Shown piece by piece: positions 6,253-40,963 of a DNA stretch of 64,000 bases. A program made the position numbers and the translations under genes. Position 1 is the stretch's first letter. Each line of letters starts with the position of its first letter. This DNA comes from Microvirga pudoricolor (GTDB lineage: Bacteria > Pseudomonadota > Alphaproteobacteria > Rhizobiales > Beijerinckiaceae). Under the pieces are notes generated by a model. It searched no databases. It saw nothing but the letters and a program-made list of their open reading frames with translations, and had not been told where the DNA came from. Location: NCBI RefSeq assembly GCF_016892705.1, contig NZ_JAFEMB010000001.1:868001-932000 (forward strand), in the 5' to 3' direction.

Positions 6253-7140
6253 ATGGCCCGGCCTAGTCTCTCGCTTCAGATGACCGCTCGCATCATTGAG
6301 CACATCCGTGAGAACAATCTATCCGCCGGCCAGCACCTGCCGGCCCAGACCCTCGCCGACGCGCTGCGGGTGTCGCGCGCGCCGATCGCGGCGGCCTTGA
6401 AGCATCTCGAAGAGCTGGAGATCGTGCGGCTCGAGCCTTACCGCGGCTATTTTCTGGCCAAGGACGCACGGGACCTCGCGCCGGACAGCGGCGCGGGCCT
6501 TTTGGATCCAGAGCCCGAGGACGACCTGTATTTCCGGATCGCGGAGGATCGCCTCTCCGGAGGATTGCCGGATCGCGTGACCGAGAACGAGCTGATGCGG
6601 CTCTACGCCGTCGCTCGAAGCCGCCTCCTCAAGGTTCTGCACCGGATTTCCGAGGAGGGCTGGGTCGAGCGGCTCCCCGGGAACGGCTGGGCCTTTCGGG
6701 CCGGCCTGACGTCGCGGGAGGGCTACGAACAGGCCTACCAGTTCCGAGCCGCGATCGAGTCGCAGGCTCTTCTCCTGCAGACGTTCCGGATCGACGGAAG
6801 GGGCTTTCGCGCGGCCCGCGCGGAGCAGCAGGCCATCCTCGATGGCGGGTACGAACGCATGTCCCGCAATCACCTCTTTCAGGCCAACTCGCAATTTCAC
6901 GAAATGCTTATCGCCTGCGCACACAACGACTTCTTCCTGGACGCCGTCCGACGGGTCAACCGCCTGCGGCGGCTGATCGAGTACCGGGTGACCGTCGATC
7001 GCTCTCGTCTGCCCGTCCAATCCCGCGAGCACCTGCAGATCCTGGACTTGATCGAAGCGGGCCAGCGCCAGGAAGCATCCGATTTCCTGAGAACCCACAT
7101 TCTGGGGGCGAGCGCCATCAAGAGCCCACAGCTCGGCTAG
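6253..7140 (+). CDS. GntR-family regulator with two winged-helix domains and an FCD domain
   Basis: 295 residues, longer than usual FCD-GntR proteins. The first winged helix spans about residues 5-68 (LADALRVSRAPIAAALKHLE, wing LEPYRGYFLAK). A second, less canonical helix-turn-helix spans about 94-152 (VTENELMRLYAVARSRLLKV, wing RLPGNGWAF). The FCD effector domain follows (YQFRAAIESQALLLQ, then the helix NSQFHEMLIACAHNDFF). It lies upstream of an aconitase paralogue and a TctC-like binding protein in the same orientation, so a tricarboxylate or related ligand is plausible. A preceding GAGG lies 11 nt before the ATG. Confidence 0.82.
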   Translation: MARPSLSLQMTARIIEHIRENNLSAGQHLPAQTLADALRVSRAPIAAALKHLEELEIVRLEPYRGYFLAKDARDLAPDSGAGLLDPEPEDDLYFRIAEDRLSGGLPDRVTENELMRLYAVARSRLLKVLHRISEEGWVERLPGNGWAFRAGLTSREGYEQAYQFRAAIESQALLLQTFRIDGRGFRAARAEQQAILDGGYERMSRNHLFQANSQFHEMLIACAHNDFFLDAVRRVNRLRRLIEYRVTVDRSRLPVQSREHLQILDLIEAGQRQEASDFLRTHILGASAIKSPQLG

Positions 7141-25129: not shown

Positions 25130-25564
25130 TCAAGCCGACCGAGGCACGACCGCCGTCGCCTCGATCTCGACCAGGGCCTGCGTCTCGACGAGTCTCACGA
25201 CCTGGACGAGAGCCATGGCGGGATAGTGCCGGCCGAGGACCTCCTTGTAGGCTTGGCCGAGGTCCCGAAGGTGCGCAAGATATTCGTCGATGCTCACGAC
25301 GTACCAGGTCAGGCGCACGAGGTGCCTCGGCTCCGCCCCTCCTTCCGCCAGGATGGCCTTGATGTTCTCCAACGTCTTGCGGGCCTGCGCCACGAACCCG
25401 TCGGGGAAGCGGCCCGTCTCGTCCCAGCCGATGATCCCGCCCGTGACCAGGAGCTTCCCGTCCGCCAGGATGCCGTTGGCGTAACCCTTGGGAACCGGCC
25501 AGTTCTTCGGATTCAGGGTCTCGTGCCCGTCGGCAGGGGCCGGTTCCGCTCTCGTGTCCATCAC
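25130..25564 (-). CDS. RidA/YjgF-family enamine/imine deaminase
   Basis: 144 residues, slightly longer than RidA (~130). The trimer-core segments NPKNWPVPKGYANGILADGK, LVTGGIIGWDETGRFPDGFV and LVETQALVEIEATAV are present; the Arg usual in IAR-type RidA catalytic motifs appears replaced in this diverged member. It is the last gene of the aminobenzoyl-CoA operon (25 bp after the acyl-CoA dehydrogenase). By pathway logic it may hydrolyse an enamine or imine CoA intermediate and release the amino group as ammonia. Confidence 0.85.
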   Translation of the reverse strand: MMDTRAEPAPADGHETLNPKNWPVPKGYANGILADGKLLVTGGIIGWDETGRFPDGFVAQARKTLENIKAILAEGGAEPRHLVRLTWYVVSIDEYLAHLRDLGQAYKEVLGRHYPAMALVQVVRLVETQALVEIEATAVVPRSA

Positions 25565-25589
25565 GGCATTTCTCCTCGCACGTTCCCTG

Positions 25590-26813
25590 TTACGCCTTGG
25601 ACGTGGCAGGGGTATTATCGGTCGTGTTGGTGCGCGAAGCGGACGTAACGGCCATCTTCAGCATCTCACGGGCAATGACGATCTTCTGGACCTCGGTCGC
25701 TCCCTCGTAGATCCGCAAGGCGCGAACGTCGCGGTACAGCTCTTCGGCCTTCACGCCTCTCGTGACACCGAGGCCGCCCATCATCTGAACGGCTTTGTCC
25801 ACGATCTCCTGGGCGGTCTCTGTCGCGTACATCTTGGCCATGGCGGCCTCTCGCGTCACACGAGCCGCGCCCCCGTCCTTCGTCCAGGCGGACCGGTAGA
25901 CGAGGAGGGCCGCGCTGTCGATCCCGGTCGCCATGTCGGCAAGCGCCGCCTGGGTCAATTGCAGGTCGCTCAGAGGTGCACCGAAGAGCCGGCGGGTGGA
26001 GGAATGGCGCAGGGCATCGTCCATGGCCCGGCGGGCGAACCCGAGGGCCGCGGCTCCCACGGTCGAACGGAACACGTCCAGGGTCGCCATGGCGATCTTG
26101 AAGCCCTCGCCCCCGCCTCCGATCCGCCGGGAGAGCGGGATCCTGCACCCCGAAAACCGCAGCGTCGCCAGCGGATGGGGGGCGATCACCTCGATGCGCG
26201 CCTCGACCGACAGCCCCGCGGTGTCGGCATCCACGATGAAGGCGGATAGCCCGCGCGCACCCGGCGCCTCGCCGGTCCGGGCGAACACCACGTAATGGTC
26301 CGCGATGCCGCCGTTCGAGATCCAGGTCTTCACGCCGTCGAGACGGACGTGATCCGGGCCGTCCGGCGTCGCGGTGGTGCTCAGGGCGGCCACGTCGGAC
26401 CCAGCCTCCGGTTCGGACAGCGCGAAGGCCGCGATGGCCTCCCCGCCCGCCACACGCGGCAGATAGCGCCGCTTCTGCTCCTCCGAGCCGAACAGCGTGA
26501 TAGGTCCGGTGCCAAGCCCCTGCATGGCGAAGGCGAAATCGGCCAGGCCTTCCTGGTAGGCGAGGATCTCCCGGGTCAGGCACAGGGTCCGCACGTCGAA
26601 CGCCGGGAACAGTCCGCCATAGGCTTCGGGCACGACGGCCTTCAGCCATCCGTCCAGGCCCAGCAGCCGCACGAGCCCCCGGCACGTGCCGTCCACATCG
26701 TGATGGTCGACGGCGCCCTGCAGGGCCGTCTCGGCCCATGGACCGAGGCGGGCGGCGTATTCGCGATGGCGGTCCTCGAAGAAGGGCCAAGCCAGGAAGC
26801 TGGCGTCGATCAC
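25590..26813 (-). CDS. Acyl-CoA dehydrogenase
   Basis: 407 residues with the N-, middle and C-terminal ACAD domains. FAD contacts are [16 protein letters not shown] and the C-terminal [19 protein letters not shown], followed by [19 protein letters not shown]. It would introduce a double bond into an alicyclic or linear CoA ester after reduction of the aromatic ring. It is preceded by the enoyl-CoA hydratase-like gene with a 1-bp gap, so the two are translationally close. Confidence 0.9.
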
Positions 26814-26814
26814 G

Positions 26815-27651
26815 TCAGTCTCCCTTGAAAACGGGCTTTTCCTTCGCCGCGAAGGCCCGGTAGGCCCGCGCGAAGTCCTCGGTCGTCATGCACAGGGCCT
26901 GGGCGACGGCTTCCGCCTCGATGGCCTCCTCGACGGACATCGCCCATTCCATGGCGAGCATGCGCTTGGTCATGGTGTTGGCGTAGGTCGGGCCGGTGCC
27001 GATGGCTTTGGCGAGATCCTGCGCCTCGCCCAGCAAGGAGGCGGACTCGACGAGCCGGCTGAAGAAGCCCCACCGCTCGCCCTCCTCGGCGCTCATGAAA
27101 CGGCCCGTATAAAGAAGCTCCGAAGCCCGTCCCTGGCCGATGATGCGAGGCAGGATCGCGCAAGCGCCCATATCGCAGCCCGCGAGGCCCACCTTGTTGA
27201 AGAGGAACGCCACCTTGGCGCCCGGCGCGGCGATGCGCAGATCGGACGCCATGGCGACGATGGCCCCGGCCCCGGCGCAGATGCCTTCGACGGCCGCCAC
27301 GATGGGCTGCGGCGCGGCCCGCATGGCCTTGACCAGTTCGCCGGTCATGCGCGTGAAGGCCGTGAGCCCTTTCGTGTCCATGTCGACCAAGGGTCCGATG
27401 ATCTCGAAGACGTCGCCTCCGGACGAGAAATTGCCCCCGGCCCCCGCCATGACCACGGCCTTGACCTCGTCGTCATGGGCACAGGCATGGAAGAAGTCGG
27501 TCAGCTCCCGGTAGCTTTCGAAGGTCAGGGGGTTCTTCTTCTCGGGACGATCCAAGGTCACGGTCGCCACCGGTCCGTTCACCGCGAGACGGAAATGCCG
27601 CGGCGTGAAGGCCGAGAGAGGCAAGGTGACGGAATTGGCATAGCGGGTCAT
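26815..27651 (-). CDS. Enoyl-CoA hydratase/isomerase-family protein
   Basis: 278 residues, crotonase fold. The oxyanion-hole segments are [16 protein letters not shown] and [17 protein letters not shown]. Around the usual second catalytic Glu the sequence reads [17 protein letters not shown] rather than the common PEvxLGl motif, so the chemistry may be ring hydrolysis or another crotonase reaction rather than simple hydration. Its start overlaps the marR stop by 4 bp. It belongs to the aminobenzoyl-CoA operon. Confidence 0.87.
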
Positions 27652-28157
27652 ACGGTCTCACCGGTCATGGCGTTGCGGGCGGAAAACTTGGTGCGGGCGA
27701 GGAGCCGCATGAGATCCTTCTGCTCCTTCGCGCTCAGGTCGCCGAACAACTCGGCAATCCAGGTCTCGTGCGCGGCCGCCATGGCGCGAAACTCCGCCCG
27801 GCCGGCCTCCGTCAGGCTGATGATCTGCGCCCGGCGATCCGTCGCTGACACCCGGCGGTCGAGGTGCCCCGACACGGCGAGCCGCTCCACGAGACCGGTC
27901 AGGTTTCCGTTCGACACCATCATGCGCCGCGACAGGTCCGACAGGGTCATTCCGTCCGGCGCCTTGTCGAGCTGGGCCATCAGGTCGAAACGGGGCAGCG
28001 TCACGTCGAACCGCTCGCGCAGGCGGCGGCGGATTTCTCCCTCGATCATGGTCGAGCAGGTGAGAAGGCGCAGCCACAAGCGCAATTCCTCACGGTGGTG
28101 CTCCGGGCTCTCGGCCGCCTTCGTCTCCGCATCGAGAGGCAGGACTTGCGAGCTCAT
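27648..28157 (-). CDS. MarR-family transcriptional regulator of the aminobenzoyl-CoA operon
   Basis: 169 residues. The winged HTH spans about 45-125 ([20 protein letters not shown], then [15 protein letters not shown], wing [13 protein letters not shown]). It lies inside the operon, 1 bp after the SDR gene and overlapping the hydratase-like gene by 4 bp. Regulators of this kind commonly sense the CoA thioester made by the pathway. Two matching AT-rich palindromes upstream of the operon's two transcription units are the likely targets. Confidence 0.88.
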
Positions 28158-28158
28158 C

Positions 28159-28923
28159 TTAAATCTCCCCTCCGGCGACGGCGATGGCCTGCCCGGTCAC
28201 GGAGGCGGCCGCATCACCGCACAGCCACAGGACCGTGCCGGCGACCTCGTCGGGCCGGATCAACCGGCCTTGCGGGTTGTGCCTGACCAGCTCGCTCAAG
28301 GCCTCCTCCCGGGAGCGTCCGGTCTTGCTCACGATGCGGTCGAGGCTCTCTTCCACGAGATCGGTCTCGGCGAAGCCCGGACAGACCGCGTTGACCGTGA
28401 CGCCGGTCCTGGCCGTCTCCAAGGCGAGGGACCGGACGAAGCCCACGACGGCATGCTTGGAGGCGCAGTAGGCGCTCACATACGGATAGCCCTTGAGGCC
28501 GGCCGTGGACGCGATGGCGACGATGCGGCCGAAACCCCGCTTCGTCATGGGCTCCAGCGCCGCTTGGGCGGCATGGACGGATCCCATGAAGTTGACGTCG
28601 ATCATCCGGCGGAACACGTCCTCGCCGGATCTTGAGAAAGGCGCCGAGACGGCGGCGCCCGCATTGGCGATCAGGAAGTCGATCGGTCCATCCGATGCAG
28701 CGGCCTCGGACATGGCGGCGCGCACGCTGGCGGCATCGGTCACGTCGGCCGTGAGGCCTCGATGAGCGCCCCCTTCGGAGACGGCGCGATCCAGGGCGGC
28801 CCGGTCCCGGCCGAGGATCGTGACCCTGGCGCCGGCGTCCTTGAGGCTCGACGCGATCGCGCGCCCGATGCCGCGCCCGCCTCCGGTCACCAGCGCGTGG
28901 CGGCCCTGAAAATCGCTTCTCAT
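28159..28923 (-). CDS. SDR-family NAD(P)-dependent dehydrogenase/reductase
   Basis: 254 residues, classical SDR. Cofactor motif VTGGGRGIGRAIA near residue 12, NAG in LIANAGAAVS, catalytic Ser in IVAIASTAGL and the active-site YCASK. It would act as a 3-hydroxyacyl-CoA-type dehydrogenase or oxo reductase on the dearomatised intermediate. It has a 1-bp gap to the upstream monooxygenase/reductase gene. Confidence 0.88.
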   Translation of the reverse strand: MRSDFQGRHALVTGGGRGIGRAIASSLKDAGARVTILGRDRAALDRAVSEGGAHRGLTADVTDAASVRAAMSEAAASDGPIDFLIANAGAAVSAPFSRSGEDVFRRMIDVNFMGSVHAAQAALEPMTKRGFGRIVAIASTAGLKGYPYVSAYCASKHAVVGFVRSLALETARTGVTVNAVCPGFAETDLVEESLDRIVSKTGRSREEALSELVRHNPQGRLIRPDEVAGTVLWLCGDAAASVTGQAIAVAGGEI

Positions 28924-28924
28924 G

Positions 28925-31279
28925 TCATTCCGCCGCCAGGGGCTTCTCGCGCCCTTCCATCTTGAGTTCGGCCCGGGTCTTCGGCTTGCCCCGAATCTTG
29001 AGGTCCTCGAGATCCTGCCGGTCGCGGACGCTGTTGCGGAAGATCTGGTCGCGGCCCGGCAGGTATTGCGGCGGGCAATGGATCGAGGTTGCGCCGTACC
29101 AGGCCGCCGCCTTCAGGGTGAAGGACGGGTCGACCAGATGCGTGCGCCCAAGCGCCACGAGGTCGGCGCGACCGGCCGCCAGGATCGTGTTGACCTGGTC
29201 GGCGGTCGTGATGTTGCCGACGCACATGGTCGCCACGTGGGCTTCGTTGCGGATCTGGTCCGAGAAGGGCGTCTGGAACATGCGGCCGTAGATCGGGCGC
29301 GCCTCGCGCACGGTCTGCCCCGTGGACACGTCCACCAGATCGGCGCCGCGCTCGGCGAAGGCGCGGGCGAACTCCACCGAATCGTCCCCCGTCACGCCGC
29401 CCTCGGCCCAGTCGGTCGCGGAAATGCGCACCGACATGGGCTTATGCGCCGGCCAGACCGCCCGCATTGCCTCGAACACCTCCAGCGGAAAGCGCAGCCT
29501 GTTCTCGAGCGTCCCGCCATACGCGTCTGTGCGCCGGTTGGTGAGCGGCGACAGGAAGCTCGCCAGCAGATAGCCGTGGGCGCAGTGAAGCTCGATCATA
29601 TCGAAGCCTGCGCGCTCGGCGCGGCGGGCCGCCTCGACGAATTGCTCCGTGATCACCTCCATGTCGGCGCGGGACAGCTCGCGCGGGACCTGGCTGTCGG
29701 GAAAATAAGGGATGGCCGACGCGGATGCGATGTCCCACGCCCCCTCGTCCAGGGGCCGATCCATCCCGTCCCACATGAGCTTCGTCGCCCCCTTCCGGCC
29801 GGCATGGCCGAGCTGGAGGCAGAATTTCGCGGCCGAATGAGCATGGACGAAGTCGACGATGCGCTTCCAGGCCGCTTCCTGCTCGTCGTTCCAGAGGCCC
29901 GCGCAGCCCAGGGTGATCCTCGCTTCCGGGGACACGCAGGCCATCTCGGTGAAGACGAGGCCTGCACCGCCGGCCGCGCGGGCGCCGTAATGCATGAGGT
30001 GCCAGTCTCCCGGCACGCCGTCCCGGGCCGAATACATGTCCATGGGCGAGACCACGACCCTGTTCTCCAGAACCATGTCCCGCAGGCGGAAAGGCTGGAA
30101 CATCGGAACGACGGGCTTGTCGACCGAGACGTCGAAGCCGTTGCGTCTGACGCGTTCCGCGAAGGAACGGTCGACGGCCGCGACGAAGTCCGGCGCTCTC
30201 AGGCGCAGATTGTCGTAAGTGATGGCCTTGGCGCGGGTCATGACCCCGAACGCGAATTGGACGGGGTCGAACCCCCAGAAGCGCGCCACGTGCTCGAACC
30301 ACACCAGGGACACGTCGGCGGCATGCTGGGTCTTCTCGACCTCCTCCCGCCGGCCCGTCTCGTAGAGGGCGAGCGCGTCCGCCACGCTCCGTTCCCGCAG
30401 GAGGGCCTCATAGAGCGCGATGGCATCCTCCATGGCGAGCTTGGTGCCCGAACCAATGGAAAAGTGCGCCGTCGCCTTCGCGTCGCCCAGCAGGACCCTG
30501 TTCCCCATCACCCAGCGCTTGTTGCGGATCATGGGGAAATTGCGCCAGATCGACCGGTTGGTCAGGATGCGGTGCCCGTCCAGGAACCAGCCGAAGATGC
30601 TCTCCATGAGAGCGGCCGCCTCGGCCTCCGTCTTACCCTCGAGCCCGGCGCGCTCGAAGGTCTCCGGATCGGTCTCGAACACCCAGGTCGAGCGGTTTGC
30701 CTCGTACTGATAGGCGTGGGCGATGAACGGTCCCCACTCCGTCTCTTGGAAGATGAACGTGAAGGCGTCCAGGGGCTTGGTCGACCCCATCCAGGTGAAC
30801 TTGTTGGGCCGCAGGTCCACCTCGGGCTGGAAATGCTCCGCGAACCGGTCCCGGAAGCGGCTGTTGATGCCGTCGGACACCACCACGAGATCCGCGTCGG
30901 CGACCAGGGCTTCGTCGTCCACGTCGGTCTCGTAGTGGAGCCTGACCCCCAGTTCAACCGCCCGGTCCTGCAGGATCAGGAGCAACGTGCGGCGCGAGCA
31001 GCCGCAGAAGCCGTTGCCGCCGATGCGGTGCTCCGTTCCCTGGAAATGGATGGCGATGTCGTCCCAATAGGCGAATTCGCGGGTGATCCGGTCGTAGCTC
31101 GGGCGGTCGTACCTCTCGAAATTGTCGAGGGTCGCGTCCGAGAACACGACGCCGAACCCGAAGGTGTCGTCGGCCCGGTTGCGCTCATAGACGGCCACAT
31201 CCCATTGCGGCCACTGTTTCTTCAGAAGGATCGCGCAATAGAGCCCAGCCGGGCCGCCGCCGATGATCGCCGTTTTCAT
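28925..31279 (-). CDS. abmA: 2-aminobenzoyl-CoA monooxygenase/reductase-like fusion (FAD monooxygenase + Old Yellow Enzyme domain)
   Basis: 784 residues. The N-terminal ~385 are a PHBH-type flavin monooxygenase: [18 protein letters not shown] near residue 8 and the second FAD motif [20 protein letters not shown] near 265. The C-terminal ~390 form an Old Yellow Enzyme/2,4-dienoyl reductase domain: [29 protein letters not shown] and [20 protein letters not shown]. This domain order and size match the Azoarcus 2-aminobenzoyl-CoA enzyme, which hydroxylates and then reduces the ring; databases also use the name salicylyl-CoA 5-hydroxylase for homologues. The ligase, RidA and divergent kynurenine genes favour the aminobenzoyl assignment. 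Confidence 0.85.
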
Positions 31280-31310
31280 GAGAGCTCCAACCCCGAGCGC
31301 GTGTCTGATT

Positions 31311-31328
31311 TATTTTAAGCTTAAAACA
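31311..31328. promoter_or_regulatory. Probable MarR operator A
   Basis: The perfect 14-bp palindrome TTTTAAGCTTAAAA (31313-31326) lies 34-47 bp upstream of the monooxygenase/reductase start. A close relative lies at 33164-33181, upstream of the ligase. Both are centred on AGCT in an otherwise GC-rich neighbourhood. Confidence 0.6.
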
Positions 31329-31377
31329 TTTTCGCATCAACCCTCCCCGCCTGATGCGAGGCGGGGCGTCCGCTGCC

Positions 31378-33024
31378 TCAGCCCGCCAGCGCGTCCTCCG
31401 GGCTGGGCTCGGCCGCGATCCTGCGCAGTTCGAAGCGCTGCAGCTTGCCCGTCTGCGTACGTGGCAGGGCGTCCACGAATTCGATGGCCCGCGGATACTT
31501 GTAGGGGGCGATCTCGGCTTTGACGTGATCCTGCAGCGCCCGCGTCAGCTCGGCGCAGGCCTGCGTGCCGGGACGGAGGACCACGTAGGCCTTGACGACC
31601 ATGCCCCGCCCGTCATCGGGCGCCCCGACGACGCCGCACTCGGCCACGGCCGGATGGGACAGAAGCGCCGCCTCCACCTCGGGGCCCGCGATGTTGTAGC
31701 CGGAGGACACGATCATGTCGTCGGAGCGGGCCTGGTACCAGAAGTACCCATCCTCATCCATGAGGTAGCTGTCCCCGCTGACGTTCCAACCGTTCTGGAC
31801 GTATTTGCGCTGCCGATCGTCCGCGAGATAGCGGCAACCGGTCGGTCCGCGCATGGCGAGGCGGCCGACGGTTCCAGGCGGGACGTCCTGGCCGTTCTCG
31901 TCGATGATCTTGGCCTCATAGCCCGGCACGGGCTTGCCCGTGGCACCGGGGCGGATGTCGTCCTCGGCGGCCGCGATGAAGATGTGCAGCATCTCGGTCG
32001 CGCCGATGCCGTCCATGAGCTTGAGGCCCGTGGCGGATTTCCAGGCTTCGAACGTGTCCTTCGGCAACGCCTCCCCTGCCGACACGCATTTGCGCAGGGT
32101 CGAGATGTCATGCTCCGCGAGTTTCGGCAGCATCGCCCGATAGGCCGTGGGCGCCGTGAAGCAGATTGTGGCGCCGTATTGTCCGATAGCGGGCAGCAGG
32201 TCGTCGGGCCCGGCCCTTTCCAACAGGATCGTGGACGCACCGATGCGCATTGGGAAGAGAACGATTCCGCCGAGCCCGAACGTGAAGGCGAGCGGCGGCG
32301 AGCCGATGAAGCGGTCGCTGGGCTCGGCCTTCAGCACGTTGCCGGCGTAAGCGTCGCAGATCGCCAGCATGTCCCGATGGAAATGCATGGTGCCCTTCGG
32401 CTCGCCCGTCGTGCCGGATGTGAAGCCGATGAGGCAGACATCGTCAGCCGCCGTGTCGACCGCCTCGAAGATCGGGGACGCGGCCGCGATCCGCGCTTCC
32501 AGGCCGTCGGGGGCGCCGCTTCCGAAAGTCACGACCTGTCCCAGGCCCGGCGAGAGCGCCTTGGCCCGCTCCATCTCGTCGATCAGGCGATGATCGCAGA
32601 ACGCGATGGAGATCTTCGCCTTGGCGATCGGGTAGGCGATTTCCTTGGCGCGAAGGAGCGGCATGGTGGCCACGACCACGCCCCCGGCCTTCAGTACAGC
32701 CAGGTAGAGCGCCACCATCATGGGGTTGTTGCCGGAACGCAGGAGTACCCGGTTGCCCGGAACGAGCCCCAGATCGTCCACCAGCACATTGCAGATGCGA
32801 TTCACGCGATCCTGCAACGCCCGATAGGTCAGCGTCTCCGTCGGGCTGATCAGGCAAGGCGCTTCCCCCCTGCCCTCGTCCACCCACCGGTCGAGAAAGG
32901 CCGTCGCGCAGTTCAGGCGCTCGGGATACTGAAGCTCCGGGCGGGCGAAGAGGAATTCCGGCCACTGATCTTGGGGCGGCAGGTTGTCTCTCGCGAAGGT
33001 GTCCACATGAGCCGTATGCGCCAT
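31378..33024 (-). CDS. abmG: 2-aminobenzoate-CoA ligase (benzoate-CoA ligase family, AMP-forming)
   Basis: 548 residues from ATG 33024, where GGGGAG lies 7 nt upstream; the frame extends 14 codons further without better support. ANL-superfamily motifs: P-loop IGFTSGTTGEPKGTMHFH, A8 region YFWYQARSDDMIVSSGYNIA, and the C-terminal catalytic Lys in RTQTGKLQRF. It activates an aromatic acid with ATP and CoA. Anthranilate is the expected substrate because kynureninase output and the downstream aminobenzoyl-CoA enzyme flank it; benzoate or salicylate cannot be excluded from sequence alone. Confidence 0.83.
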   Translation of the reverse strand: MAHTAHVDTFARDNLPPQDQWPEFLFARPELQYPERLNCATAFLDRWVDEGRGEAPCLISPTETLTYRALQDRVNRICNVLVDDLGLVPGNRVLLRSGNNPMMVALYLAVLKAGGVVVATMPLLRAKEIAYPIAKAKISIAFCDHRLIDEMERAKALSPGLGQVVTFGSGAPDGLEARIAAASPIFEAVDTAADDVCLIGFTSGTTGEPKGTMHFHRDMLAICDAYAGNVLKAEPSDRFIGSPPLAFTFGLGGIVLFPMRIGASTILLERAGPDDLLPAIGQYGATICFTAPTAYRAMLPKLAEHDISTLRKCVSAGEALPKDTFEAWKSATGLKLMDGIGATEMLHIFIAAAEDDIRPGATGKPVPGYEAKIIDENGQDVPPGTVGRLAMRGPTGCRYLADDRQRKYVQNGWNVSGDSYLMDEDGYFWYQARSDDMIVSSGYNIAGPEVEAALLSHPAVAECGVVGAPDDGRGMVVKAYVVLRPGTQACAELTRALQDHVKAEIAPYKYPRAIEFVDALPRTQTGKLQRFELRRIAAEPSPEDALAG

Positions 33025-33070
33025 CACCCGCTCCCCTCGCCATGATCCCTCGCACCAGCCGGGCACGCTC

Positions 33071-33094
33071 CCGGCTGCCGCTGACGGCAGCCGG
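33071..33094 (-). promoter_or_regulatory. Stem-loop in the ligase mRNA leader
   Basis: CCGGCTGCCG (33071-33080) and CGGCAGCCGG (33085-33094) form a perfect 10-bp stem with a 4-nt loop, about 47 bp upstream of the ligase ATG and downstream of the putative operator. It may stabilise or attenuate the leader transcript. Confidence 0.5.
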
Positions 33095-33163
33095 CAAGGT
33101 CACGCAACCGTTAGCGGACGCGCTTGAATTCACGCGGAAATCCGCTTGCCGAAGCTCTCAAAA

Positions 33164-33181
33164 TATTTAAAGCTTAAAATA
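33164..33181. promoter_or_regulatory. Probable MarR operator B
   Basis: TATTTAAAGCTTAAAATA is an 18-bp palindrome with one mismatched pair, sharing the AGCT-centred core of operator A. It sits between the divergent ligase and livK-like genes, so one site could control both directions. Confidence 0.6.
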
Positions 33182-33390
33182 ATACTTGGCAATCCTGAAC
33201 ATCAGAACGATCATGGACCAGTGGCCGAAACGCGCATGGAAACCATAGGACGGGAGCCCGAGTAGCAACGGCCGGGGAATTGCGGCAGATTACCGCCGGA
33301 GACCGGCAAGGCGACTCACAACGCCCAGCCGGAGAGCAATCGCAGCACGGCAAACCGTGCGCGGGGAACAGCCACTTTCGGGAGTGCATG

Positions 33391-34566
33391 ATGAATCCTA
33401 CGATGAAGTCCCTCGGCCTGACGGCAGCCCTCAGCCTGGCCGCCGTCCCGGCTCTGGCGCAGGAAAAGTTGAAGGTCGGCCTGCTGCTGACCCTGTCGGG
33501 CCCTTCCGCCGTGCTCGGGCAGCAGGCGCGCGACGGGTTCCAGCTCGCCGTCAAGGAAATGGGCGGCAAGCTCGGCGGACGCGACGTCGAGGTCATCGTG
33601 GTGGATGACGAGCTGAAGCCCGATGTGGCGGTGACCAAGGTCAAGGGCCTCATCGAGCGCGACAAGGTCGACTTCGTCGTCGGCCCCATCTTCTCGAACG
33701 TCGCGGTGGCGGTCCACAAGCCCATCGTGGACGCGCAGACCTTCTACATCAGCGTGAATGCGGGCCCGTCCAATCTCGCGGGCAAGAGCTGCAACCCGTA
33801 CTTCTTCGCGACGTCCTATCAGAACGACCAGAACCACGAGGTTCTGGGCAAGGTAGCTCAGGACCGCGGCTACAAGAAGGTTTACCTGCTTGCCCCCAAC
33901 TACCAGGCCGGCAAGGACGCGCTCGCAGGATTCAAGCGCCACTACAAGGGCGAGATCGTCGAGGAATCCTATGTGCCGCTGAACAACCTGGACTTCCAGT
34001 CGGAGCTCGCCAAGATCGCCTCCATGAAGCCCGACGCGATCTTCACCTTCATGCCGGGCGGCATGGGTGTGAACCTCGTGAAGCAGTATCGCGCGGCCGG
34101 ACTTGCGGATCGGATCCCGTTCCTGTCCGCTTTCACGGTCGACGAATCCACCCTTCCGGCCCAACAGGATGCCGCCATCGGAATGCTCGGCGGCTCCAAC
34201 TGGGCCCCCAATCTCGACACGCCCCAGAACAAGAAGTTCGTGACGGCCTACGAGGCCGCCTACAACTCGGTGCCGGGGTCTTATTCCATGCATGCCTACG
34301 ACGCGGCGCAGATGATCGACACCGCCCTCAAGGCGACGGGCGGCAAGATGGACAACAAGGACGCGGTGCGGGCCGCCCTCAAGAAAGCCGACTTCAAGTC
34401 CCTGCGCGGTGACTTCAAGATCGGTGCCAACGGCTTCCCGGTCCAGGACTTCTACCTCGTGAAAGCCGCCAAGCGCCCTGACGGCAAGTTCCAGACTGAA
34501 ATCGTCGAGAAGGTCTTCGACGACTACGTGGACGCCTATGCGAAGGAATGCGCCGCGACGAACTGA
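33391..34566 (+). CDS. Branched-chain amino-acid-type ABC transporter substrate-binding protein
   Basis: 391 residues. ATG 33391 is preferred over the adjacent ATG 33388 because GGAG lies 6 nt before it. The signal peptide (SLGLTAALSLAAVPALAQ) is cleaved near residue 22; the mature domain starts LKVGLLLTLSGPSAVLGQQ. LivK-like proteins in aromatic catabolic clusters often bind aromatic acids. This gene heads an operon for a full importer and three kynurenine-pathway enzymes, so tryptophan, kynurenine or anthranilate is a likely ligand. Confidence 0.9.
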   Translation: MNPTMKSLGLTAALSLAAVPALAQEKLKVGLLLTLSGPSAVLGQQARDGFQLAVKEMGGKLGGRDVEVIVVDDELKPDVAVTKVKGLIERDKVDFVVGPIFSNVAVAVHKPIVDAQTFYISVNAGPSNLAGKSCNPYFFATSYQNDQNHEVLGKVAQDRGYKKVYLLAPNYQAGKDALAGFKRHYKGEIVEESYVPLNNLDFQSELAKIASMKPDAIFTFMPGGMGVNLVKQYRAAGLADRIPFLSAFTVDESTLPAQQDAAIGMLGGSNWAPNLDTPQNKKFVTAYEAAYNSVPGSYSMHAYDAAQMIDTALKATGGKMDNKDAVRAALKKADFKSLRGDFKIGANGFPVQDFYLVKAAKRPDGKFQTEIVEKVFDDYVDAYAKECAATN

Positions 34567-34586
34567 GCGGTCTCTCTCGTGCCCGT

Positions 34587-34603
34587 CCCGGCCCTTGGCC
34601 GGG
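34587..34603 (+). terminator. Intercistronic hairpin after the binding-protein gene
   Basis: CCCGGCC (34587-34593) and GGCCGGG (34597-34603) with a 3-nt loop, in the 138-bp gap before the LivH-type gene. Expected to favour binding-protein expression over the membrane subunits. Confidence 0.5.
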
Positions 34604-34704
34604 GCGGGGCCTGTGCTCCCCCGGCGCCACCGGAACGGCGGGTCCGCTCCTTCCCTCCGCCCGCTCCCTCCGCGCCCTGGAGATCGCTTGCCCATGAAAA
34701 GCCG

Positions 34705-35625
34705 ATGACAGCGACCCTCTTTCTCGTTCAGGCCCTCAACGGCCTCCAGTTCGGCCTGATTCTGTTCCTCATCGCGGCCGGACTGACGCTGGTTTTCGGC
34801 GTCATGGATTTCATCAATCTGGCGCACGGGGTCCAGTACATGGTCGGCGCCTACCTGGCCGCCGCCTTCACGGCCTGGACCGGGAATTTCGGCCTCGCCC
34901 TCCTCCTGGCGCTCCCGTCCGCGCTAGCCTTCGGCCTTCTTCTCGAAGTGCTGATCTTCCGCCATCTCTACGACCGCGACCACCTGGATCAGGTTCTCGC
35001 CACGTTCGGCGTGATCCTGTTCCTGAACCAGGGCGTCAAGTTCGTCTGGGGAGCGGCCCCGTTGAACGTTCCCGTGCCCGAGATCCTCTCGGGCTCCATC
35101 GAAATCGCCGACGGCCTGCTCTATCCGGTCTATCGCCTTGCGATCATCGCGGCTGGCCTCGCGGTGGCGGCGCTGCTCTACGGTCTCGTGAGCCACACGC
35201 GGGTCGGGATGCTGGTGCGCGCCGGCGCCTCCAATGCCCCGATGGTGGCGGCCCTCGGCGTCAACATCAAGCGGCTGTTCATGATCGTCTTCGGGTTCGG
35301 AGCCATGCTGGCGGGCTTCGCCGGCGCGATGGTGGCCCCCATTCTGTCCGTCGAGCCCGGCATGGGCGACAACATCCTGATCCTGGCCTTCGTGGTCATC
35401 GTCATCGGCGGCATCGGGTCGATCCGCGGGGCTTTCCTCGCCGCCATCCTGGTCGGCCTCGTCGACACCGTGGGACGCTCCTTCGCGCCCAACCTTCTTC
35501 GCCTGGTTCTCGATCCGGCGAATGCCAGCCAGACCGGCCGGGCCATCGCGCCGATGTTGATCTACATCTTCATGGCGGCGATCCTGTTCTTCCGGCCGGC
35601 CGGCCTCTTTCCCGCGAAACGCTAA
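34705..35625 (+). CDS. Branched-chain amino-acid-type ABC transporter permease, LivH-like
   Basis: 306 residues from ATG 34705; the longer frame upstream is Pro/Arg-rich and non-membrane. The segment GLTLVFGVMDFINLAHGVQY is the hallmark of LivH permeases, and the coupling region is VVIVIGGIGSIRGAFLAAIL. About eight membrane segments. It pairs with the LivM-like protein encoded 9 bp downstream. Confidence 0.92.
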   Translation: MTATLFLVQALNGLQFGLILFLIAAGLTLVFGVMDFINLAHGVQYMVGAYLAAAFTAWTGNFGLALLLALPSALAFGLLLEVLIFRHLYDRDHLDQVLATFGVILFLNQGVKFVWGAAPLNVPVPEILSGSIEIADGLLYPVYRLAIIAAGLAVAALLYGLVSHTRVGMLVRAGASNAPMVAALGVNIKRLFMIVFGFGAMLAGFAGAMVAPILSVEPGMGDNILILAFVVIVIGGIGSIRGAFLAAILVGLVDTVGRSFAPNLLRLVLDPANASQTGRAIAPMLIYIFMAAILFFRPAGLFPAKR

Positions 35626-35634
35626 GGCCGTCGC

Positions 35635-36663
35635 ATGTCCCCAATCGCCGAAACGCGTCCCGTTGCGATCACAGGCCAGCGACGGCGTGTCGAATGGCTT
35701 CCCGTCATCTTGTTCGGAGCCTTCGTGCTGGCGCCCGTCTTCGCCGCGTTCTCGGGCGCCGAAGGCTATGTGCTGTCGCTCCTGACGCGGGTGATGATCT
35801 TCGGCATCGCGGCCATGTCCCTCGATCTCATCCTCGGCTACGGGGCGCTCGTGAGCTTCGGCCACGCGGCCTTCCTGGGCATCGGCGGCTATGCGGTCGG
35901 CATCCTGGCGGCCCACGGCGTCGAGGACGCGCTGGTCCAGGTGCCGGTGGCTCTGGCGGCCTCGGCGCTGTTCGGTCTCGTTACCGGCGCCATCTCGCTG
36001 CGCACGAAGGGCGTCTATTTCATCATGATCACCCTGGCCTTCGGCCAGATGCTCTATTTCCTCGCCACCTCGCTCGCGTCCTATGGCGGCGATGACGGCA
36101 TGACCCTCGCAGCCCGCAGCCTCGTGGCGGGCCTGCCGCTCCTGAAGGGCGATTTCGCCCTGTACTGGGTCTGCTTCGTCTGCCTGCTCGGCACCTATGT
36201 GCTGGCCCGGTCGATCGTGGCGTCCCGCTTCGGGCGCGTCCTGCGCGGCTCCCGCGAGAATGCGACCAGGATGGAAGCCATCGGCTTTCATCCGTTTCGC
36301 TACCAGCTCGTCGCCTACATGATCAGTGGCATGATGGCGGGCCTGGCCGGCTGCCTTCTGGCCAATCAGGCCGAGTTCATCAGCCCCGCCTTCATGACGT
36401 GGCAACGATCCGGCGAGCTGATCTTCATGGTGGTGCTCGGCGGCCTCGGATCGCTTCACGGCGCGGTCCTCGGCGCCGCCGCCTTTCTCCTTCTCGAAGA
36501 ATTCCTGCCGGAGATCCTTCACATGCTCGGCTTCATGTTGAGCACCGACATGCAGGCCAGGCTGGTCGAGAACTGGAAGATGGTCTTCGGTCCTCTCCTC
36601 ATCCTCATCGTGCTGTTTGCCCGCGGCGGCATCATGGGAATGCTGGGAGGCCGCCATGAATGA
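35635..36663 (+). CDS. Branched-chain amino-acid-type ABC transporter permease, LivM-like
   Basis: 342 residues. LivM signatures: MSLDLILGYGALVSFGHAAF, RTKGVYFIMITLAFGQMLYF and VVLGGLGSLHGAVLGA. It completes the membrane channel with the LivH-like subunit. Its last 8 bp overlap the start of the next gene, showing tight coupling. Confidence 0.92.
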   Translation: MSPIAETRPVAITGQRRRVEWLPVILFGAFVLAPVFAAFSGAEGYVLSLLTRVMIFGIAAMSLDLILGYGALVSFGHAAFLGIGGYAVGILAAHGVEDALVQVPVALAASALFGLVTGAISLRTKGVYFIMITLAFGQMLYFLATSLASYGGDDGMTLAARSLVAGLPLLKGDFALYWVCFVCLLGTYVLARSIVASRFGRVLRGSRENATRMEAIGFHPFRYQLVAYMISGMMAGLAGCLLANQAEFISPAFMTWQRSGELIFMVVLGGLGSLHGAVLGAAAFLLLEEFLPEILHMLGFMLSTDMQARLVENWKMVFGPLLILIVLFARGGIMGMLGGRHE

Positions 36664-37408
36664 GCCTCAGCTCGCGCTTCGCAACCTGCGCAAGGCCTAC
36701 GGAGCCCTCGTGGTCACGGACGGCGTGGACCTGACGGTGCAGGCGGGCGAGCTCCATGCGATCATCGGCCCCAACGGGGCCGGCAAGACCACGCTCATCC
36801 ACCAGATCTCGGGGCTTGCATCCTCGGATTCCGGTCAGGTGCTCTTCGATGGACGGGACGTGACCGGCCTGCCGATGCACAAGCGGGTTCGTCATGGCCT
36901 GGCCCGCTCGTTCCAGATCACCTCGATCCTGCCGAAGTTCTCGGCCCTGGACAACGTCGCCCTCGCGGTGCAGGCCCGCTCCGGCTCGAGCTTTCGGTTC
37001 CTTGGAGATGCCTCGCTCGAGGCGGACCTCAACGAGCCTGCGATGGAGTGCCTGAATCTCGTCGGCCTTGGAGCCCGCGCCGCGATCCCGGCCGGGCTTT
37101 TGTCCCACGGCGAGAAAAGACAGCTCGAACTCGCGATCGGGCTGGCGACGCAGCCTAAGGTCCTGCTTCTCGACGAGCCCTTGGCCGGAACGGGCCATGA
37201 GGACGCTCAACGGGTCGTCGAGACCCTCAGACGCCTCAAAGGGCGCATCACCATCGTGTTGATCGAGCATGACATGGACGCCGTCTTCTCTCTTGCGGAC
37301 CGCGTCAGCGTGCTGGTGTATGGCCGTCTGATCGCAACGGATTCGCCCGAAGCCATCCGGGCCAATGCGGAGGTGCGCAGCGCCTATCTCGGAGAGGAGG
37401 CGGCCTGA
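36656..37408 (+). CDS. ABC transporter ATP-binding protein, LivG-like
   Basis: 250 residues from ATG 36656, overlapping the LivM stop. Walker A GPNGAGKTTLIHQISG, signature LSHGEKRQLELAIGLAT (the canonical SGG is SHG here, a frequent LivG variant), Walker B VLLLDEPLAGTGHED and switch His in IEHDMDAVFSLADRV. One of two ATPases of the importer. Confidence 0.92.
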   Translation: MNEPQLALRNLRKAYGALVVTDGVDLTVQAGELHAIIGPNGAGKTTLIHQISGLASSDSGQVLFDGRDVTGLPMHKRVRHGLARSFQITSILPKFSALDNVALAVQARSGSSFRFLGDASLEADLNEPAMECLNLVGLGARAAIPAGLLSHGEKRQLELAIGLATQPKVLLLDEPLAGTGHEDAQRVVETLRRLKGRITIVLIEHDMDAVFSLADRVSVLVYGRLIATDSPEAIRANAEVRSAYLGEEAA

Positions 37409-38106
37409 TGCTGTCCGTGCGCAATCTGCAGGCCTCCTATGGGGCTGCGCAGGTCCTGTTCGACATTTCCTTCGAGGTCGGAACCGGCCAAGTCGTGACA
37501 CTCCTGGGTCGTAACGGGATGGGCAAGACCACCACCATACGAACCCTCATGGGTCTTCTCCCGGCGAGGAGCGGCGACATCCGCTTCGAGGGCGCCCCGA
37601 TGGCGGGCCTCGCCCCCTACCGCATCGCGAAGGCGGGGATCGGCCTCGTTCCGGAAGGGCGGCAGATCTTTCCGACGCTGACGGTCGAGGAGAATCTCGT
37701 TGCGACGGCGGCGGCGCGCAGCGGCGTACGCCGCTGGACCCTCGACGCGATCTACGACCTGTTCCCGCGCTTGAAGGAACGCCGCGCCAATCTCGGCACG
37801 CAGCTCTCGGGCGGCGAACAGCAGATGCTGGCGATCGGCCGGGCTCTCATGACCAACCCGAAACTCATGATCCTGGACGAGGCCACGGAAGGCCTGGCGC
37901 CTCTCATCCGGGCCGAGATTTGGGCCTGCCTCAAGCGCCTGCGATCGGAGAACCAGTCCATCCTCGTCATCGACAAGAACGTGGATGTGCTGGCGGGATT
38001 CGCGGACCGCCATGTGATCGTCGAGAAAGGCCGCTCCGTGTGGTCCGGCACGAGCGCCGAACTGATGTCCGATTCCACCCTCAAGGATCGTTACCTCCAC
38101 GTATGA
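37408..38106 (+). CDS. ABC transporter ATP-binding protein, LivF-like
   Basis: 232 residues, starting on the last base of the LivG stop (TGATG). Walker A GRNGMGKTTTIRTLMG, signature LSGGEQQMLAIGRALM, Walker B LMILDEATEGLAPLI. The expected switch His position reads VIDKNVDVLAG, i.e. Asp-Lys instead of a typical E/QQ or H motif, as often seen in LivF. Its stop overlaps the start of the formamidase gene by 4 bp. Confidence 0.9.
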   Translation: MLSVRNLQASYGAAQVLFDISFEVGTGQVVTLLGRNGMGKTTTIRTLMGLLPARSGDIRFEGAPMAGLAPYRIAKAGIGLVPEGRQIFPTLTVEENLVATAAARSGVRRWTLDAIYDLFPRLKERRANLGTQLSGGEQQMLAIGRALMTNPKLMILDEATEGLAPLIRAEIWACLKRLRSENQSILVIDKNVDVLAGFADRHVIVEKGRSVWSGTSAELMSDSTLKDRYLHV

Positions 38107-38942
38107 ACGGAACCCGCGCCCCCATGTCCGAAGCGGTCGACCTCGAAGCCGAATACAACAACCGTGCGCGGGTCCCGGGGCACGGAGAGAACATCGCCGG
38201 CTGGCACCGCGACGCGGCCGCCTACAGGGAGGTTGCCGCCTGCGAACTCGACCTGTCCTATGGACCGGAGAAACGGCATCGGCTGGATCTCTTCTTCGCC
38301 TCGAACGGAGACCGGAACGGCCCCATCGTGTTCTTCATTCACGGCGGGTACTGGCAGGCTTTGGACAAGTCCTCCGCGAGCCATCTGGCGCGCGGCGCGA
38401 ACGAGCGCGGGTTGACGGTCGCCATCCCAAGCTACCGCCTGGCTCCGGCGGTGACCCTTGCCGAGATCGTAGCGGATATCGAGAGGGCGGCCGATTTCGT
38501 CATGGAACGGACAGGGTGCCCGATCGTGGCGACGGGACATTCGGCGGGTGGCCATCTCGCGGCTTGCCTGATGGCGCGAACGGACGCTCCCCGGCGCCCC
38601 GTGAAATCCGCGATGCCGATCTCCGGCCTGTTCGATCTCAGCCCCCTCGTGCCGACCTCGATCAACAAGGCTCTCGGCCTGAGCGTGGACGACGCCCGCA
38701 GGCTCAGCCCGATCCTTTGGCCGCCTCCGGCATCCGGGCATCTGGAGGCCATCGTCGGAGGGGCCGAGAGCAGCGAGTTCCACCGCCAGTCCCGCGACAT
38801 CGTCGAGCGCTGGAGCGAGGCGGGGGTCGCGGCTCGGTTCCATGAGGTGGCCGGAGCTCATCACTTCGACGTTCTCGACGGTCTCGTCGATCCCGGCGAT
38901 AATCTGGTCGACCACCTTGTGCGGCTGGCGGAACGCGCCTGA
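38103..38942 (+). CDS. Alpha/beta hydrolase, probable AFMID-type kynurenine formamidase
   Basis: 279 residues from ATG 38103 (ATGA overlap with livF-like gene; ATG 38124 is an alternative). The oxyanion motif HGGYW (80-84), nucleophile elbow GHSAGG with Ser147, and a C-terminal GAHHFDVLDG with the probable catalytic His match the animal-type arylformamidase (AFMID) group rather than the metal-dependent cyclase-family KynB common in bacteria. Followed by tryptophan dioxygenase and a kynureninase-like gene, it should hydrolyse N-formylkynurenine to kynurenine and formate. A generic esterase role is possible but less likely here. Confidence 0.78.
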   Translation: MNGTRAPMSEAVDLEAEYNNRARVPGHGENIAGWHRDAAAYREVAACELDLSYGPEKRHRLDLFFASNGDRNGPIVFFIHGGYWQALDKSSASHLARGANERGLTVAIPSYRLAPAVTLAEIVADIERAADFVMERTGCPIVATGHSAGGHLAACLMARTDAPRRPVKSAMPISGLFDLSPLVPTSINKALGLSVDDARRLSPILWPPPASGHLEAIVGGAESSEFHRQSRDIVERWSEAGVAARFHEVAGAHHFDVLDGLVDPGDNLVDHLVRLAERA

Positions 38943-38978
38943 GGCCGTGGGCCGGCAAGCCAAGTCATGGAGAGTTGC

Positions 38979-39803
38979 ATGTCCCGGGAACAGGAAGGCA
39001 TTCAGACGGACTTTTCCAAGGATATGAGCTATGGCGACTATCTGCAGCTCGACACCCTTCTGTCCGCCCAGATCACACTGACGAACGAGCACGACGAACT
39101 GCTCTTCATCGTCATCCATCAGGTGATGGAGCTATGGCTGAAGCTCCTGAACCGCGAGCTGGACACGTCTCTCGACCACCTGCGGGCCGACGAGCTCCAG
39201 CCTGCCTTCAAGTGCTTTGCCCGCGTCAACCGCATCCAAGAACAGCTGATCCAAGCCTGGACGGTGCTCTCGACCATGACGCCCTCGGATTACCTGCGGT
39301 TCCGCGAGACCCTGGGACGCTCCTCGGGATTTCAGTCGTGGCAGTACCGGCTTGTCGAGTTCAAGCTCGGCGCTAAGGATCCCGGCAAGATCGGGCCTCA
39401 CCGGCACCGCGAGGATCTTCTGGCAAAGCTTGAGGCCGCCTTGCACGCACCGAGCCTCTATGACGAGACGATGCGGGTTCTGGCCCGCCGGGGCTATGCG
39501 ATCCCGGAGGATGTGCTGGGCCGCGACCTGTCGAAACCTCATGAGCCGAATGAGGCCGTCGAGCGGGTGTGGATCGAGATCTACAAGAACTCGGATGCGC
39601 ATTTCGACGTCTACGAGCTGGCCGAAGAGCTCGTGGACCTGGAGGACGCCTTCCAGCAATGGCGCTTCCGCCACATGAAAACCGTGGAACGGATCATCGG
39701 GATGCGGCGCGGCACGGGCGGTAGCGCCGGCGTCGGCTACCTGCGCCACGCGCTGGAGAAGTCGTTCTTTCCCGAACTCTGGTCGGTCCGCACCAAACTC
39801 TAG
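38979..39803 (+). CDS. kynA: Tryptophan 2,3-dioxygenase
   Basis: 274 residues from ATG 38979, with GGAG 6 nt upstream (an in-frame ATG at 38967 lacks one). Hallmarks of the heme enzyme: FIVIHQVMELWLKLLNRELD with the substrate-side His47, DYLRFRETLGRSSGFQS with the carboxylate-binding Arg, proximal heme His in WRFRHMKTVERIIG (His232) and the C-terminal loop GTGGSAGVGYL. It opens the indole ring of L-tryptophan to N-formylkynurenine. Operon position between formamidase and kynureninase confirms the pathway. Confidence 0.95.
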   Translation: MSREQEGIQTDFSKDMSYGDYLQLDTLLSAQITLTNEHDELLFIVIHQVMELWLKLLNRELDTSLDHLRADELQPAFKCFARVNRIQEQLIQAWTVLSTMTPSDYLRFRETLGRSSGFQSWQYRLVEFKLGAKDPGKIGPHRHREDLLAKLEAALHAPSLYDETMRVLARRGYAIPEDVLGRDLSKPHEPNEAVERVWIEIYKNSDAHFDVYELAEELVDLEDAFQQWRFRHMKTVERIIGMRRGTGGSAGVGYLRHALEKSFFPELWSVRTKL

Positions 39804-39817
39804 AGACGGCAAGATCC

Positions 39818-40963
39818 ATGCTCGACCTGCGCCCTGACTTCTCCCGCTTTCTCGGCTCCGATCCCGGCCGCCTGCATTTCGCGGCGCACAGTCATCACCC
39901 CTGGCCGGACGTGACGCGGGAGGCGCACCTGCAGGCCTGGGAGGACGCGGCCCGGCTGATGGACGACAAATGGGAGACGGTGCTGGGACCCGTGCTGGAG
40001 GAATTCCGCGCCCATGCGGCGGCGCATCTGTCCCTTCCGGATCCGGGCACGATCGCCATCGCGCCGAACACCCACGAGTTCGTCAAGCGGATCCTCTCCT
40101 GCTTTCCGGACGGACGTCCCACCCGCATCTTGACCACCGACAGCGAATTCCATTCCTTCAGCCGCCAGGTGGCGCGGCTGGAAGAAGACGGGCTCGTCTC
40201 TGTCACACGGGTGCCGGCGGAGCCCTTCGACACGTTCGAAGACCGCCTTCTGGCAAAGGCCGCCGGACAGGACCTGATCTTCGTGAGCCAGGTCTTTTTC
40301 AATTCCGGCTTCGCGGTGGACATCGATCGCCTCCTGGAGGCTCCGGAGGACGCCATGATCGTCGTCGACGGCTACCATGGCTTCATGGCCCGCCCGACCT
40401 CGGTGGCATCTCTGGCCAGCAGGATCTTCTACCTCGCCGGCGGGTACAAATACGCGATGGCAGGCGAAGGCGCGTGCTTCATGCATTGCCCGCCGGGATG
40501 GGGCCCGAGGCCGCGCGACACCGGCTGGTTTGCGGCCTTCGGGAACCTGACCGGCGCGCAATCCGGCTGGATTGGCTACAGCGAGGACGGGTGGCGGTTC
40601 ATGGGGTCGACCTTCGATCCGTCCGGCCTCTACCGCTTCAACGCCGTCATGCGCTGGCTGTCCGAGCGGCACATGACGCCCCAGATCATTCACGAGCACT
40701 CCCTCGACCTGCAGGAGCGCTTCCTCGTCTCCGGTGCCCGGGCGCTCGGGCTTGATGCTCAGGCGCATGCGGGGCTGCCCGCACGGGACCGCCGCGGGAA
40801 CTTCCTCTCTCTTGAGATGTCCGATGCCGGAAAGGTCTATGGGCTTCTGAAATCCCGCAACGTGGTGACGGATTACCGGAACGACCGCCTGCGCATCGGG
40901 TTCGGGATCTACCAGAACATGGACGACGTCGACGCGCTCGTGAGCCGGCTCGGTGAGCCCTAG
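39818..40963 (+). CDS. kynU: Kynureninase-like PLP enzyme (aminotransferase class V fold)
   Basis: 381 residues, shorter than typical kynureninases (about 415). The PLP Lys is probably Lys211 in YLAGGYKYAMAGEG, where kynureninases have GCGYKYLNGGPG, and the cofactor Asp is in IVVDGYHGF (Asp184). It would cleave kynurenine to anthranilate and alanine, supplying the divergent aminobenzoate operon. The sequence is clearly diverged from the well-studied enzymes, so the call leans on context. Its TAG stop overlaps the stop of the convergent Gfo/Idh gene within CTAG. Confidence 0.78.
   Translation: MLDLRPDFSRFLGSDPGRLHFAAHSHHPWPDVTREAHLQAWEDAARLMDDKWETVLGPVLEEFRAHAAAHLSLPDPGTIAIAPNTHEFVKRILSCFPDGRPTRILTTDSEFHSFSRQVARLEEDGLVSVTRVPAEPFDTFEDRLLAKAAGQDLIFVSQVFFNSGFAVDIDRLLEAPEDAMIVVDGYHGFMARPTSVASLASRIFYLAGGYKYAMAGEGACFMHCPPGWGPRPRDTGWFAAFGNLTGAQSGWIGYSEDGWRFMGSTFDPSGLYRFNAVMRWLSERHMTPQIIHEHSLDLQERFLVSGARALGLDAQAHAGLPARDRRGNFLSLEMSDAGKVYGLLKSRNVVTDYRNDRLRIGFGIYQNMDDVDALVSRLGEP

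Follow-up and report, generated by a model that had tools for sequence, protein, structure and literature searches.

Two pathways already known singly meet in the locus described here, which lies in a stretch of 64,000 nucleotides (the window) of the Microvirga pudoricolor genome (GCF_016892705.1, contig NZ_JAFEMB010000001.1, positions 868,001 to 932,000 of the forward strand) and carries predicted kynurenine (kyn) genes next to predicted genes for the degradation of anthranilate via 2-aminobenzoyl-coenzyme A (2-aminobenzoyl-CoA; abm genes). The aerobic abm pathway of Azoarcus evansii, Cupriavidus and Arthrobacter sp. Rue61a combines, as the window does, a CoA ligase and a fusion of a flavin adenine dinucleotide-dependent monooxygenase with an old yellow enzyme, followed by genes of the β-oxidation type, and the 2-aminobenzoyl-CoA route is described in passages of two reviews (PMC4539516, PMC6221969). 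In Paracoccus denitrificans PD1222 the genes for the fusion, a short-chain dehydrogenase/reductase (SDR), a MarR regulator, an enoyl-CoA hydratase (ECH), an acyl-CoA dehydrogenase (ACAD), a thioesterase, a RidA protein, the ligase and a Liv importer stand in a row. Compared to these known systems, the abm genes of the window are arranged head-to-head with an importer operon carrying kynurenine genes, and they are unlike those of the Rue61a plasmid, which have PaaX-type regulators on their flanks.

Bacterial KynABU systems resemble the other half of the locus in that a tryptophan 2,3-dioxygenase, a formamidase-like hydrolase and a kynureninase-like enzyme follow each other in a row; in the window, however, the formamidase candidate is an α/β-hydrolase resembling animal AFMID, and the kynureninase, here termed KynU', falls outside the family TIGR01814. 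The accessible text of PMC8879955 lists both kyn and abm genes for one Cupriavidus genome. A limited literature search at the level of titles and abstracts found neither a joint kyn and abm regulon nor a kynureninase family of the KynU' type. The preliminary description of the locus knew the two halves separately and not as one divergent unit under a common control region; other families of the order also contain clusters of kyn and abm genes, several of them with a canonical kynureninase. Five such clusters (L116, L118, L119, L120 and L122), in which no more than 15 kb separates kynA from the fusion, also contain an AFMID-like hydrolase, but differ from the window in gene order and in having a canonical kynureninase in place of KynU'.

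We observed two divergent gene runs, a leftward abm run and a rightward importer-kynurenine run, around an apparent shared control region of 366 bp (33025..33390) with a single promoter-like site (33186-33214, + strand). All genes named here are open frames matching the expected Pfam and NCBIfam families, confirming the gene content originally described; the starts of the genes for the ligase, LivK, LivH, LivG and the AFMID-like hydrolase were chosen within longer open frames. We interpret the genes as a regulon for the catabolism of tryptophan and anthranilate that is controlled by a single repressor of the MarR type and is merged here into one locus, and judge this reading from the sequence to have a probability of about 0.8. 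It is also probable, at somewhat lower confidence, that the KynU' family, which is missed by the NCBIfam model, replaces the canonical kynureninase in many Alphaproteobacteria and that one operator of the MarR type, TATTTTAAGCTTAAAATA, joins the opening of tryptophan to the breakdown of 2-aminobenzoyl-CoA in one regulon even where the genes are not adjacent, the window presenting this regulon in merged form. Computation established which genes are present, the families they belong to, how they co-occur and are linked, and how the operator is distributed.

The divergent character of the kynureninase and the repetition of a palindrome of the control region before the fusion gene go beyond the preliminary description. 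This 18-bp palindrome, the putative operator, occurs at exactly two sites in the 4.77-Mb genome at up to two mismatches, both of them at the locus. Copy 1 (31311..31328) lies 31 bp before the start of the fusion gene, inside the 98-bp gap between the ligase and fusion genes, and copy 2 (33164..33181) lies in the region between ligase and LivK, where other Microvirga genomes have the same site. A scan of the window at up to three mismatches returned these two sites only, with 0.00 expected from shuffles. Sites with up to two mismatches are present in 40 of the 48 genomes sampled for the genus (36 with two, two with one and two with three), while the reversed pattern as a control gave 0 or 1 site per genome, and where, among the matches listed, both sites stand on one contig, they are approximately 1.7-2.1 kb apart. 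Six of the seven genus genomes devoid of the fusion also have no operator site, the seventh (G371) having two, and two genomes (G366, G381) possess the fusion with no site at up to two mismatches. In two genomes we noted a third operator-like site away from the abm locus (G263:C110:563908-563925 and G367:C1:2881023-2881040).

The same operator is found outside the genus and away from the abm genes. The 250 bp preceding the fusion contain it at up to four mismatches in 45 of 51 loci, and at up to three mismatches it is present between divergent kynA and kynU' genes in 22 of 30 loci, none of these 22 having a full fusion match in the fetched stretch. By comparison, none of 88 control upstream regions (ACAD, ECH, LivM, LivG and LivF) scored below eight mismatches, and 1 Mb of random Markov sequence contained no site at up to four. 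A comparison of the two places within 26 genomes gave the kyn site (up to three mismatches) in 21, the fusion site (up to four) in 25 and both in 20, thus tying kyn and abm genes where these are not adjacent. The KynA-KynU' pairs of Bosea, Belnapia, Falsiroseomonas and Chelatococcus illustrate this arrangement: they share with the window the same kynureninase family next to KynA and, in most cases, the same operator, but their kynA and kynU' genes are divergent, and the fusion, with no full match in the fetched stretch, is encoded elsewhere in the genome. The operator thus stands at both operons of the window and also accompanies kyn genes of relatives that are not linked to abm genes, but no clear copy is seen in unlinked kyn loci of Microvirga. 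A perfect copy was also seen in a Pseudorhodoplanes metagenome-assembled genome (MAG), at position 11240 of locus L097, about 110 bp past the end of the KynU' match.

Several observations on the operator speak against such a common switch. The kynA upstream regions of other Microvirga (32 loci) have one site at four mismatches, all others showing at least six; 8 of the 30 divergent kynA/kynU' loci have no site within three mismatches, as is the case for all 13 co-oriented loci scored outside Microvirga; and 6 of the 51 fusion upstream regions contain none within four, one of these (L115) having sites just beyond the 250 bp. When 270-base pieces were drawn at random from the fetched loci, 38 of 2000 reached four mismatches or fewer; the pieces were unsorted and their source loci contain real operator sites. 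The consensus was drawn partly from the same loci as were scored.

The distribution of the genes also connects the two halves. In a sample of 199 genomes of the order, the fusion was called in 60 at a score of at least 982 bits (54 above the curated cut-off, a few being cut by contig ends), and it is encoded in 43 of the 47 genomes with kynA compared to 17 of the 152 without it (Fisher p 5e-25, not corrected for relatedness). The fusion lies within 15 kb of kynA in 11 of the 43 genomes having both. The 17 genomes with a fusion and no kynA run counter to a strict coupling and imply that the abm genes also serve other sources. According to the accessible text of PMC8879955, C. metallidurans CH34 does not grow on anthranilate despite annotated kyn and abm genes, which also argues against the proposed function. 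The original proposal that the locus leads from tryptophan through anthranilate to CoA esters as a single unit sharing its control region is nevertheless supported by the repetition of the operator, by the joint occurrence of kynA and fusion, and by the kinship of the ligase to an enzyme, described below, that is reported to be active on anthranilate.

KynA (38967..39803, + strand) is a tryptophan 2,3-dioxygenase (TIGR03036, 400.6 bits with a cut-off of 390.7; best structure 2nox, 2.3e-102) and the sole PF03301 match in the genome. The gene following it, kynU' (39818..40963, +), had been described as kynureninase-like, and such a gene is indeed present, but it is not a canonical kynureninase by NCBIfam: KynU' reaches 16 bits on TIGR01814, whose equivalog cut-off is 246.4, and it gave neither an NCBIfam match at 0.001 nor a pairwise match in the PDB. 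The case for its function therefore draws on its domain, its residues and its genomic context. KynU' contains a KYNU_C domain (1.7e-7). This domain was detected in 34 of 35 proteins of the family but not in any of the five generic class V enzymes examined, of which two are partial, and a profile built from the 35 relatives places the solved kynureninase 1qz9 first (1.9e-15) ahead of cysteine desulfurases (2.3e-6). An alignment of 15 sequences, five of them canonical kynureninases, shows D184, H187, Y210, K211, W237 and R359 to be invariant, along with other positions; we take these six to be the kynureninase catalytic positions. Among the 199 genomes, KynU' is present in 7 (at least 420 bits, the next match scoring 27) and canonical kynureninase in 42 at 1e-30 (41 above the cut-off), with an overlap of 0. 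The 47 kynA genomes divide into 38 with a canonical kynureninase, 7 with KynU' and 2 with neither. In addition, KynA is encoded within 1.5 kb of KynU' in 77 of the best 80 of 88 loci. We read the lack of co-occurrence, the division of the kynA genomes and this adjacency to KynA as one enzyme replacing the other. In the samples for the family and the genus, KynU' is encoded by 18 of 149 and 43 of 48 genomes, respectively, and the fusion is present in 26 of the 27 KynU' genomes searched, which were drawn from the 80 loci.

The failure on TIGR01814 leaves room for KynU' being another class V enzyme dependent on pyridoxal phosphate (PLP), of the desulfurase or lyase type, that acts on a different kynurenine-pathway compound. 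Further observations point in this direction: in profile comparison, the generic class V enzymes score 1.4e-15 and the canonical kynureninases 3.1e-9, both sets being small (five each) and the generic set having been found by its similarity to KynU'; Foldseek with the AlphaFold model (pLDDT 88.7) ranks kynureninase first with C-DES, SufS and CsdA close behind, so that the structure is not decisive on function; and a Persicobacter relative, 40% identical to KynU', has no KYNU_C match. The domain distribution, the catalytic positions common to canonical kynureninases, the replacement pattern and the absence of any TIGR01814 match in the whole genome argue against this alternative, which we regard as improbable. 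A similar doubt concerns the leftward operon, as the family NF006101, in which the fusion (28925..31279, - strand) scores 1135.6 bits above a cut-off of 1078, is named salicylyl-CoA 5-hydroxylase/oxidoreductase, and the ligase (31378..33024, -) is above the cut-off of TIGR02262, a benzoate-CoA ligase family. This operon might thus degrade salicylate or benzoate and stand next to kynurenine genes by chance. The closest relatives of both enzymes suggest otherwise. The best PDB match of the ligase is the anthranilate-CoA ligase 4wv3 (358.7 bits), followed by a benzoate-CoA ligase (280.2), and the ligase is 56% identical to that of the Arthrobacter sp. Rue61a plasmid, ARUE_113p00220, equated here with the gene at L221:7333-8988 by its position adjoining the fusion; the fusion is 54% identical to its counterpart on the Rue61a plasmid pAL1. 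PMC3534580 reports anthranilate-CoA ligase activity for ARUE_113p00220, and also that Rue61a, whose fusion is of this type, grew when given anthranilate but failed to grow on salicylate. Together with the association of fusion and kynA over the 199 genomes and the operator common to kynA-kynU' pairs where no fusion is near, this led us to reject both the salicylate or benzoate reading and a chance adjacency of the halves, for which very little probability remains.

The alternative that deserves most weight, though still unlikely, concerns the importer and the AFMID-like hydrolase (38103..38942, +; PF07859). These may serve another anthranilate precursor, such as N-formylanthranilate or an anthranilate ester, kynA-kynU' having been attached later and feeding the same anthranilate pool. 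In 10 of the 12 Microvirga abm loci with the divergent arrangement (the rearranged G357 set apart), a clear AFMID-like gene (63-70% identity) closes the importer operon while kynA-kynU' is located elsewhere; none of the 80 KynU' loci has an AFMID-like match at 1e-8; and in two Falsiroseomonas loci (L210, L213) the gene stands by the importer with no kynA nearby. Of the two remaining Microvirga loci, G351 has a weak match (33%), and G263 has none behind its importer and is also devoid of KynU', a single case that favors a role in the kynurenine pathway. This role is further supported by AFMID-like genes of 34-40% identity in the five kyn and abm clusters of other families, by the sequence HGGYWQ, which presumably corresponds to the HGGYW-type motif of kynurenine formamidases, and by a match to the kynurenine formamidase 4e11 (2.8e-22), which we take to be the Drosophila enzyme and which ranks third behind the putative esterase 2pbl (1.5e-42) and a lipase. 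A second importer near kynA in L031 was considered and dropped, as it is 6-8 kb off and only 31-42% identical.

In the preferred model of one tryptophan/anthranilate regulon, we infer the substrates, co-transcription, repressor-operator binding, the inducer and ring opening. KynA would open the tryptophan ring, the AFMID-like hydrolase would take off the formyl group, and KynU' would release anthranilate with alanine. The ligase would then form 2-aminobenzoyl-CoA, which the fusion is predicted to hydroxylate and reduce, giving a CoA ester that is no longer aromatic. Further steps by SDR, crotonase and ACAD may follow a β-oxidation-like route, and LivKHMGF presumably imports some substrate of the pathway. 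Within each run the genes overlap or are at most 25 bp apart, with two exceptions (ligase/fusion, 98 bp; LivK/LivH, 138 bp), a spacing that suggests co-transcription. The MarR-family protein encoded within the abm operon (27648..28157, -; PF12802/PF01047), found at the same position in Microvirga abm loci and the candidate owner of the operator, would repress both operons via the two palindromes and might be displaced from them by an intermediate of the pathway, anthranilate or 2-aminobenzoyl-CoA being the most likely. The other Microvirga that we examined have kynA-kynU' elsewhere, with no clear operator copy; in M. pudoricolor it is located behind the formamidase candidate and would therefore come under the same switch.

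Comparison within the genus shows which part of the locus is particular to this genome. Among the 48 genomes, 41 encode the fusion, 43 KynU' and 40 both, yet the two lie within 15 kb of each other only in the genome of the window (1/40). Nine of the other 39 have both on one contig at least about 66 kb apart and 30 have them on different draft contigs, so that a few kyn/abm links could be hidden. The divergent ligase/LivK arrangement is kept in 12 of 13 fetched genus abm loci, G357 being rearranged; none of the 13 contains kynA, 10 of them covering only approximately 0.15-1.4 kb past the AFMID-like gene. The divergent unit pointed out originally is thus common in the genus as far as abm genes, importer and formamidase candidate are concerned, whereas the attached kynA-kynU' is specific to this genome. 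Across the best 80 KynU' loci, the fusion is near KynU' in only two (L090 and L101, both Acidimicrobiia MAGs); G101 of the order sample is another case. In trees of the fusion and of KynU', the window sequences group with those of Microvirga, the KynU' of the window on a long branch (0.43) of unsure exact placement, and an import of either half from outside is not supported. Most simply, this lineage would have inherited the two halves and then brought them together, by which kynA-kynU' would come under the operator of the importer operon; an ancestral linkage lost elsewhere is a conceivable alternative.

The remaining genes of the abm operon, all on the - strand, encode the SDR dehydrogenase (28159..28923; PF00106/PF13561), a crotonase of the ECH family as candidate ring hydrolase (26815..27651; NF006107, 460.7 bits, cut-off 330), the ACAD (25590..26813; PF00441/PF02770/PF02771) and, at the operon end, a RidA-like protein (25130..25564; PF01042, 6.5e-19). 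RidA-like genes recur in abm clusters. Active RidA enzymes carry an Arg at a position where this protein reads PAMALV, and since it also scores 53.7 bits, under the TIGR00004 cut-off of 106.25, we dropped it as enamine deaminase for the fusion product and claim no deaminase role. Between ACAD and RidA, a related abm operon (L127, genome G334) has a gene at 5970-6467 that appears thioesterase-like by eye, and Paracoccus has an annotated acyl-CoA thioesterase at the matching position, where the window has no gene. The importer, all on the + strand, consists of the LivK-type periplasmic binding protein (33391..34566; PF13458, 1.4e-84), the permeases LivH (34705..35625; PF02653) and LivM (35635..36663; PF02653) and the ATPases LivG (36656..37408; PF00005, PF12399) and LivF (37408..38106; PF00005).

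Two plasmids encode proteins with 30-36% identity to KynU'. In Streptomyces goshikiensis (NZ_CP140776.1; L218, 3479-7179), a gene of the benzoate-CoA ligase family, a tryptophan dioxygenase gene and a gene for a KynU'-like protein annotated as kynureninase (36% identity) adjoin an enediyne chromoprotein gene, suggesting recruitment of this trio for making an anthraniloyl-type building block. In Methylocystis iwaonis (NZ_CP143315.1; L219, 5072-7158), a tryptophan dioxygenase is directly followed by a class V PLP protein with 30% identity to KynU' and 93 bits on TIGR01814, which may stand midway between the two families of kynureninase.

KynU' is a candidate, open to enzyme assay, for a second family of kynureninases that escapes the NCBIfam model, and the operator TATTTTAAGCTTAAAATA is a specific motif predicting tryptophan and anthranilate degradation genes genome-wide. 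The presence of the fusion in nearly all kynA genomes suggests that in the sampled order anthranilate formed from kynurenine usually enters the CoA route, which bears on the turnover of tryptophan and anthranilate in soil.

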